Positions 3,193 through 4,750 of a DNA stretch of 37,393 bases are shown piece after piece. The notes beneath the pieces are model-generated. The model worked only from the letters and a program-made list of their open reading frames with translations. It was not told where the DNA came from and did no database searches. Position 1 is the first letter of the stretch; each line of letters opens with the position of its first letter. The translations under genes were made by a program, and so were the position numbers. Origin of the DNA: an uncultured Treponema sp. (lineage in GTDB: Bacteria; Spirochaetota; Spirochaetia; Treponematales; Treponemataceae); NCBI GenBank assembly GCA_947170195.1, contig CAMVSS010000006.1, positions 1 through 37,393 of the forward strand, written 5' to 3'.

Positions 3193-3468
3193 TTAGTTCT
3201 CTACAACAGCGATGATGTCAGCATTTTTTACGATGAGATAATCTTCGCCGTCGATTTTTACCTGTGTTCCGGCATATTTGTCGTACATAACGCGATCACC
3301 AACTTTTACGGTGATTTTTTCTTTTTCTGTTCCCGGTCCTACAGCTTCGACAGTTGCAGTCTGTGTTTTTTCCTGTGCTGTCTCTGGAATGATGATTCCT
3401 GATGCTGTTTTTGTCTCAGCCTTTTCCTGTTTAAGAAGAACTCGGTCTGCCAATGGTTTGAGTTTCAT
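3193..3468 (-). CDS. groES: Co-chaperonin GroES
   Basis: The 91-residue product is a full-length Cpn10. It starts with MKLKPLADRVLLKQ, has the mobile-loop region around ETKTASGIIIPETAQEK with the hydrophobic Ile-Ile-Ile tripeptide that docks on GroEL, and ends with the YLIVKNADIIAVVE strand. GroES caps the GroEL folding chamber in the cytoplasm. A strong GGAGG (complement of 3478-3482) lies about 9 bases before the ATG. No groEL gene lies beside it; only a terminator follows. No CIRCE operator (TTAGCACTC inverted repeat) was seen upstream, so HrcA control is not supported. A weak promoter with -35 TTGTCG and -10 TATTTT at 17-bp spacing can be drawn in the region 3520-3560 on this strand. Confidence 0.96.
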   Translation of the reverse strand: MKLKPLADRVLLKQEKAETKTASGIIIPETAQEKTQTATVEAVGPGTEKEKITVKVGDRVMYDKYAGTQVKIDGEDYLIVKNADIIAVVEN

Positions 3469-3616
3469 TTATTTTTTCCTCCAATAAAAAATTCTTGATT
3501 TGGGCTTTTCTAAAAAACCATACAATAAAAATATAGAATTTTGAGGCGATCGACAACAAAAAAATGATTTTTTCTAGATTCACCATGGTTTATGGATTTG
3601 TTTTTTTGAAAAGCTG

Positions 3617-3711
3617 TGTCATTTTGATACAGTTTTTCGCGTGAAATAAAGCTGTGTGTCAAAATGATACAAGGTGTGCCGTTATTCTACCGGCAGTGTC
3701 AAAATGAAACA
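3617..3711. promoter_or_regulatory. Three 15-bp enhancer-like dyads with exact 40-bp spacing
   Basis: Copies are TGTCATTTTGATACA (3617-3631), TGTCAAAATGATACA (3657-3671) and TGTCAAAATGAAACA (3697-3711). The shared form is TGTCA-N3-TGA(T/A)ACA, an imperfect inverted repeat suited to a dimeric helix-turn-helix. Each copy begins exactly 40 bp after the previous one, close to four helical turns, so bound dimers would lie roughly on one face. Relative to a start at about 3887, the centres are near -263, -223 and -183, the usual range for sigma-54 enhancer-binding proteins. The protein that binds is not encoded in this window. Confidence 0.75.
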
Positions 3712-3859
3712 GTTTTTTGAAGTTCTGCCCGTTACAAAAAATTAGTTTGCGGCTGAAATGAGGTTTTCCGGGGCTTAAAAAAATCATACGCGGCTTCCCT
3801 TTGCGTGATTCGCGCTGTTTTTTGAAAATTAAACAAAAATTTGACGCAAAATTAAAAAG

Positions 3860-3876
3860 TTGGCACGAATCTTGCT
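3860..3876 (+). promoter_or_regulatory. Sigma-54 (-24/-12) promoter of the sigma-factor gene
   Basis: TTGGCACGAATCTTGCT fits the sigma-54 consensus (TGGCAC-N5-TTGCW) at every conserved base. GG is at 3862-3863 and GC at 3874-3875 with exactly 10 bp between them. The predicted start is near 3887, giving a leader of about 24 bases that contains the GGAG ribosome binding site for the ATG at 3911. This also shows that translation cannot begin at the in-frame upstream start at 3860, which lies in the promoter. Confidence 0.9.
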
Positions 3877-3910
3877 AATCTTTAGAAAACCTTTTTCTGG
3901 AGAATTTGCT

Positions 3911-4750
3911 ATGAAACACGAAGACGAAACATTGAAAGTTTACCTCAAAGAGATTAACAGAATTCCGCTTTTGACTGCGGAACAGGAAAAAGAGCTTGCT
4001 GTAAAAGCCAGAAATGGAAGCAAAATGGCAAAGGATAAGTTGGCAAATGCTAATCTTCGTTTTGTAATCACTATTGCAAAGACTTATCAGGGACGAGGTC
4101 TTGAACTTGCCGATTTGGTCAGCGAGGGAAACATCGGTCTGCTTACAGCGATCGATCACTTTGATGTTGATAAAGGCTACAGATTTATTTCATATGCTGT
4201 ATGGTGGATTCGCCAGAGCATTGCAAAAGCTTTGTGCGACAAGAGCCGGGCTATCAGACTTCCGATGAACAGAGTTAATGAGCTTGTTCAGATTGAAAAA
4301 GCAAAGAATTTTGTTTCAAAATCAAAGGCTGAGGAAATCCAGATAAAAGAAATCGCCGGAATCCTTGGGATGGAAGTTTCTCACGTGCGCGAGATGCTCA
4401 ACTTCAACAAGGAGCTTGTAAGCCTTGACGCTCCGATTGACGGCGAGAAGGGCGAAACTTCTTCTGTCGGCGACTTCTTGAAGGACGACATGAACGAAAG
4501 CCCAGAGCAGCATGCAATAAGCAAGGCAATGGCAGAGGATATTGATTCTGCGCTCAAGACTCTCAAACCGTCAGCAGAAAAAGTTATGCGACTTCGATAC
4601 GGACTCAATGGAAACAAGGCGATGTCTCTCAAAGAGGTCGGAGATGTCTGCGGCCTTACAAAAGAGAGAATCCGTCAGATTGAGAAAGGTGCTGTTCAGA
4701 CATTGCGCCTTCCGTCAAGAAGACGAATGCTTGAAAGCTACGTCGCTTAG
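3911..4750 (+). CDS. Sigma-70-family RNA polymerase sigma factor (short, group 2/RpoS-like)
   Basis: The product is 279 residues from the ATG at 3911, which has GGAG 8 bases upstream; an upstream in-frame start at 3860 falls inside the promoter and is rejected. Region 1.2 (DETLKVYLKEINRIPLLTAEQE) is followed by region 2 (NLRFVITIAKTYQGRGLELADLVSEGNIGL, then the -10-melting GYRFISYAVWWIRQSI), region 3, and region 4 with the helix-turn-helix LKEVGDVCGLTKERIRQIEKGA. Region 1.1 is missing and the protein is much shorter than a primary RpoD, which suggests an alternative factor. It directs RNA polymerase to a regulon not visible here. A perfect sigma-54 promoter and three enhancer-like sites lie upstream, so it is probably induced by an activator. 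The gene overlaps the convergent recG end by 4 bp. Confidence 0.92.
   Translation: MKHEDETLKVYLKEINRIPLLTAEQEKELAVKARNGSKMAKDKLANANLRFVITIAKTYQGRGLELADLVSEGNIGLLTAIDHFDVDKGYRFISYAVWWIRQSIAKALCDKSRAIRLPMNRVNELVQIEKAKNFVSKSKAEEIQIKEIAGILGMEVSHVREMLNFNKELVSLDAPIDGEKGETSSVGDFLKDDMNESPEQHAISKAMAEDIDSALKTLKPSAEKVMRLRYGLNGNKAMSLKEVGDVCGLTKERIRQIEKGAVQTLRLPSRRRMLESYVA

Follow-up and report, generated by a model that had tools for sequence, protein, structure and literature searches.

A predicted sigma-54-dependent promoter with regularly spaced enhancer dyads upstream of a sigma-70-family gene in an uncultured Treponema and related spirochaetes

Results

The intergenic region between groES and S1

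The window, i.e., the whole stretch of 37,393 nt that was analysed, embeds a sigma-70-family gene (hereinafter S1) and its divergent neighbour groES, which are separated by a gap of 442 bp containing both the promoter and the dyads discussed in this work. The features of the region are the following:

3193-3468, minus strand: groES (cpn10), recognised by Pfam and NCBIfam; divergent neighbour and candidate bystander to the switch
3615-3631, no strand assigned: candidate enhancer dyad 1, TGTGTCATTTTGATACA, a 17-bp palindrome (22.3 bits with the genus model)
3655-3671, no strand assigned: candidate enhancer dyad 2, TGTGTCAAAATGATACA, 40 bp from dyad 1 (22.3 bits with the genus model)
3695-3711, no strand assigned: candidate enhancer dyad 3, AGTGTCAAAATGAAACA, 40 bp from dyad 2 (16.7 bits with the genus model)
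3860-3876, plus strand: sigma-54 promoter element TTGGCACGAATCTTGCT, with -24 GG and -12 GC (TTGGCAC-N5-TTGCT)
3887, plus strand: predicted transcription start, about 12 nt past the -12 GC, placed according to the usual geometry of sigma-54 promoters
3899-3902, plus strand: ribosome-binding site GGAG (from the sequence), with the ATG at 3911
3911-4750, plus strand: S1, sigma-70-family sigma factor of 279 aa (Pfam regions 1.2, 2, 3 and 4; orthologs in the genus)

The promoter element matches the consensus TGGCAC-N5-TTGC of sigma-54-dependent promoters, its GG (3862-3863) and GC (3874-3875) being separated by 10 bases. The core boxes of the three dyads (TGTCATTTTGATACA at 3617, TGTCAAAATGATACA at 3657 and TGTCAAAATGAAACA at 3697) follow each other at steps of exactly 40 bp; when two bases are added to the left of the core, dyads 1 and 2 become full 17-bp palindromes (TGTGTCA-N3-TGATACA), while dyad 3 represents a weaker copy (AGTGTCA-N3-TGAAACA). 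Exact matches to the dyad occur in the whole genome at these three sites only, and the search of the window against Rfam gave no matches. A previous sequence-only reading of this DNA had described the -24/-12 element, the three evenly spaced dyads and the downstream 279-residue sigma factor with its GGAG-led ATG; the first was borne out base for base, both the coordinates and the sequence of the dyads were confirmed, and Pfam assigned the four sigma-70 regions to the predicted product. The divergent groES is an addition to that reading.

The rpoN gene and the enhancer-binding proteins presupposed by the same reading are also harboured by this genome. Indeed, rpoN is intact (524 aa, C-terminal RpoN box ARRTVAKYR, TIGR02395 above the cut-off), and two activator genes were retrieved, L015 and L016. 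The former, located beside rpsA, codes for a GAF-AAA+-HTH activator with a NifA/NorR-like layout and is the sole activator with a DNA-binding domain seen in this genome; the latter (1099-2214) codes for an AAA+ sigma-54 activator of 372 aa without a DNA-binding domain, and proteins of similar size exist in most relatives. A regulator of the Rrp2 type was not found in this genome, which is 79.9% complete and split into 263 contigs, nor in those of the relatives G051 and G005, likewise incomplete.

Conservation within the genus

The regions upstream of S1 orthologs (mostly 49-71% protein identity with S1) were collected from 70 genus genomes, 69 of them being readable and one being lost to a contig end. 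The pattern TGGCA[CT]-N7-GC was found in all 69 regions, typically 42-131 bp ahead of the start codon and farther away in L039 and L047; moreover, a T directly precedes the -12 GC in 69 out of 69 cases, even though this base was not part of the search pattern. The 17-bp palindrome model, which was fitted to the stretch preceding the promoter in these same genus regions, recognised 131 sites in the 69 regions vs. a mean of 3.5 in dinucleotide shuffles, with at least one site in 65 of them. The spacing between the sites is 40 bp in 58 instances, 39 bp in two and 41 bp in three, and a pair at exactly 40 bp is present in 52 of the 69 regions and in none of the 20 shuffle rounds. The expectation that relatives would keep both the dyads and the -24/-12 bases was therefore upheld; the idea of a three-site enhancer, instead, was upheld for this genome, whereas most relatives carry two dyads. 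On these counts, neither the -24/-12 element nor the dyads are a product of chance, and we consider it nearly certain that, by themselves, both are real.

Distribution across the phylum

Since the palindrome model had been fitted to the regions on which it was tested, a blind scan was also run on the family, covering 274 genomes in full; its query was a fixed pair of dyads at a 40-bp distance, and up to three mismatches were tolerated. The pattern matched in 85 genomes and its reversed control in none; S1 follows the pair at a distance of 182-356 bp in all the 52 matched genomes with a listed S1 position. Within the family, the dyad element was met with in 11 genera, always at the same gene where this was checked. 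Outside the genus, the promoter was recovered in 24 and the exact 40-bp pair in 17 of the 28 regions upstream of S1, and the two together reach families f3, f6, f7, f8 and f10, several of which belong to other orders or classes. In one genome (G177, L164) groES, S1 and the sigma-54 element are kept, and recognisable dyads were not found. The distance between the dyad pair and the promoter varies widely, whereas the 40-bp spacing is near-invariant. As far as sequence can tell, the dyads are conserved together with the promoter, as a distal enhancer of a sigma-54-dependent promoter should be.

S1, a second sigma factor gene and the rpoS of Borrelia

A second sigma-70-family gene, S2 (G000:C115, L137, 574-1410, minus strand), is nearer to Borrelia RpoS than S1 is. 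It has a -24/-12 element of its own, TTGGCATGAAAATTGCT, and no dyads were found in its upstream region. A phylogeny of 36 sigma proteins places Borrelia RpoS together with S2 (support 100/97), and the alternative tree joining RpoS and S1 was rejected (AU p 0.009), the test being limited by long branches; because of these branches, the non-orthology of S1 and RpoS has good but not final evidence. The rpoS gene of Borrelia (family f5) carries the same TTGGCAY-N7-GC element as S1, no dyads were seen upstream of it, and an S1 ortholog was not found in four genomes of the Borrelia family. The lack of visible dyads agrees with the enhancer-independent activation of Borrelia rpoS, where Rrp2 binds no upstream site and needs no upstream DNA (PMC1976401). 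Most simply, these comparisons would mean that the enhancer is a property of S1 and was lost from Borrelia together with it.

Further candidate targets

The genome was also searched for -24/-12 elements, with one mismatch allowed and a control pattern run alongside. Most of the other matches stayed at the level of the control, the clearest additional elements being those preceding S2 and hsp20. The latter gene (G000:C41, L127, 961-1389, minus strand) possesses the element TTGGCACGCTTTTTGCT together with a pair of dyads (20.9 and 14.6 bits) spaced by 24 bp and is likely a second target; hence, the protein binding the dyads may serve a small stress-related regulon.

Candidate activators

Three types of activator were compared. 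Type a proteins (receiver-AAA+-HTH, about 450 aa, GAFTGA intact) occur once per genome in nearly all the genomes examined, other families included, and in five out of five loci checked their gene is preceded by a histidine kinase gene. In a quick tree they form a single clade with Borrelia Rrp2 (support 96); this Rrp2 ortholog is present in most relatives, and this incomplete genome is one where it was not found. Of 59 genus genomes, about half encode the GAF type, i.e., L015 or one of its orthologs. Type c proteins, found in other genus genomes, are GAF-less and keep the HTH of the GAF type next to a degenerate AAA+ domain, so that they might possibly act as ATPase-dead regulators.

The products of L230-L239 retain the HTH but have lost the GAF domain as well as the GAFTGA and Walker B motifs; such proteins seem to replace the GAF-type activator in many members of the genus.

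The recognition helix of type a (IGRKTL) is nearly invariant and resembles the DNA-binding helix of ZraR, whose structure (1ojl) is also the closest solved one to the lid-HTH part of these proteins. The dyad model derived from spirochaetes assigns 15.3 and 13.0 bits, respectively, to the E. coli palindromes CGAGTCATTTTTACTCA and CGAGTAAAAATGACTCG, which lie between zraP and zraS and which we take to be the footprinted ZraR sites; on this assumption, the dyads behave as sites of the ZraR/AtoC class. They do not behave as palindromes of the NorR class, given that the E. coli norR-norV sites score -0.1 or lower, -0.1 being the best value in the nor intergenic region. NorR-type recognition, which had been favoured first (L015 is a GAF-AAA+-HTH protein and the core reads GTCA-N3-TGAC), was abandoned on account of these negative scores.

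The position of the genes points in the same direction. Indeed, the type a gene stands directly ahead of the dyads, the promoter and S1 in G276 and G310 and just upstream of S1 in G318, while in families f10 and f28 the gene adjoining S1 is of the Rrp2 type. Type a is thus favoured by its ZraR-like HTH and the scores of the ZraR sites, those of nor being below zero, by its vicinity to S1, and by the fact that species with perfect dyads and a type c protein (G015 and G077) would have to rely on a different activator for a functional ATPase. The Rrp2 ortholog, a response regulator of the AtoC/ZraR kind, would therefore be the likeliest binder of the dyads.

Discussion

Taken together, these findings suggest the existence of a two-step sigma relay in which a sigma-54 promoter and a dyad-bound activator of the Rrp2 type would have S1 as their output. 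Computation directly shows that the -24/-12 and dyad elements exist, that they are conserved and sit at S1, that the genome encodes rpoN, and that dyad and HTH are similar to the ZraR pair. According to the model that we propose, sigma-54 RNA polymerase would wait as a closed complex at the element 3860-3876, while the enhancer-binding protein might bind as a dimer at each 17-bp dyad, and two or three such dimers, on sites 40 bp apart, would seed an AAA+ hexamer. This hexamer should reach the promoter via DNA looping and open the closed complex, leading to the synthesis of S1, which, in turn, might steer the polymerase to its own set of promoters. The activator would be the receiver-AAA+-HTH regulator of the AtoC/ZraR group orthologous to Rrp2 and encoded beside a histidine kinase, through which a signal would presumably be received. 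The promoter without recognisable dyads in G177 counts against this explanation, which as a whole we regard as probable and no more, because the search of this incomplete genome yielded no type a protein.

For the same reason, a variant of the model deserves attention, in which the sigma-54 switch is the same and the dyads are bound by L015, whose place may be taken in relatives by the derivative without a GAF domain. Being the only HTH-bearing activator found in this genome, L015 could be the binder in this species, and the HTH that it bears is shared by those GAF-type and c-type genus proteins that were examined. However, in G015 and G077, whose dyads are intact, the AAA+ domain of the L015-type protein is degenerate and lacks GAFTGA, so that this protein could not open the promoter alone; moreover, NorR sites fail the dyad model whereas ZraR-like sites score, and it is an Rrp2-type gene, rather than an L015-type one, that adjoins S1 in f10 and f28. 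On balance, we judge binding by L015 unlikely, and an Rrp2-type binder remains the reading that we prefer.

Two further explanations would detach the dyads from the promoter. The dyads are palindromes of ordinary operator size placed 147-243 bp from groES, and they might accordingly represent operators for an unrelated repressor or activator, e.g., one acting on the divergent groES, next to a real sigma-54 promoter. Nevertheless, they persist in relatives even though most of these lack a recognised groES on that side (by a crude motif test), the 40-bp pair lies solely upstream of S1 in 52 out of 52 checked genomes, and hsp20, having its own -24/-12 element, also bears two dyads; we thus hold an operator function of this kind to be quite improbable. 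It is also generally known that direct repeats with a fixed spacing and in three copies can mark the ends of transposons, so that either chance repeats or the multi-repeat end of an IS21-like element might be invoked. This seems hardly conceivable, since the dyad element recurs at the same gene, wherever checked, in 11 genera; a mobile-element end, in particular, was ruled out by this conservation of position and by the lack of further exact copies in the genome.

As for the Borrelia-like two-sigma relay suggested by the sequence-only reading, the sigma-54 promoter in front of a sigma-70-family gene stood, whereas the gene is not an ortholog of rpoS according to the AU test. The Rrp2-RpoN-RpoS pathway of Borrelia is alike in that a sigma-54 promoter drives a sigma-70-family gene and the activator proposed here is an Rrp2 ortholog; it is unlike in that the target there is rpoS, without an enhancer, and here S1, with conserved dyads as a predicted enhancer. 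Since S1 is not an rpoS ortholog and Borrelia rpoS is enhancer-free, the parallel concerns the type of circuit and not the same gene. Since the layout recurs in a large part of the spirochaete phylum, the two-step switch is probably ancient, and akin to the RpoN-RpoS switch of Lyme disease bacteria without being identical to it. A broader and more tentative scenario, to which we give slightly less than an even chance, is that of an old spirochaete-wide module, in which a two-component activator of the Rrp2 line would act on a rigid 40-bp two-site enhancer almost exclusively at S1; Borrelia might have lost S1 and the enhancer and kept the activator with its HTH for the enhancer-less rpoS, and an ATPase-dead relative of another activator might add a layer of control in part of the genus.

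Sigma-54 is known to drive other sigma factors, such as rpoS in Borrelia and the flagellar fliA in several proteobacteria. The E. coli ZraSR/zraP system shares with the one described here a pair of palindromes ahead of a sigma-54 promoter, the GAGT/GTGT-N7-AC layout and a related HTH, but its sites are 31 bp apart and its targets, zraP and zraSR, include no sigma factor. In the E. coli NorR/norVW system, three enhancer sites precede a sigma-54 promoter and the activator has the same GAF-AAA+-HTH organization as L015, whereas the sites fail the dyad model and their spacing differs from 40 bp. AtoSC of Treponema denticola (Frederick et al. 2008, J Bacteriol 190:6162) belongs to the same response-regulator family in a related genus; a link between AtoC, sigma-54 and a sigma-70 gene may reportedly have been suggested there, and we know of no report of dyads, of a fixed 40-bp spacing or of phylum-wide conservation for this system. 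As far as the literature searched shows, what appears to be new here is the presence of dyads at a fixed distance from one another, the fact that they are tied to S1, and how widely they occur in the phylum.

The regulation known in this large group of host-associated spirochaetes is sparse, and the sigma cascade predicted here from sequence names a target gene, its sites and a likely activator. It also offers a reason for the puzzle of why Borrelia Rrp2 keeps a DNA-binding domain even though rpoS needs no enhancer. Furthermore, a near-invariant spacing of 40 bp combined with a variable distance from the promoter represents an unusually clean natural constraint on the assembly of activator dimers.

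A minor observation concerns the regions upstream of S1 in L023-L031, where, in several close relatives, GC-rich repeat-like insertions separate the dyads from the promoter, with both elements staying intact.
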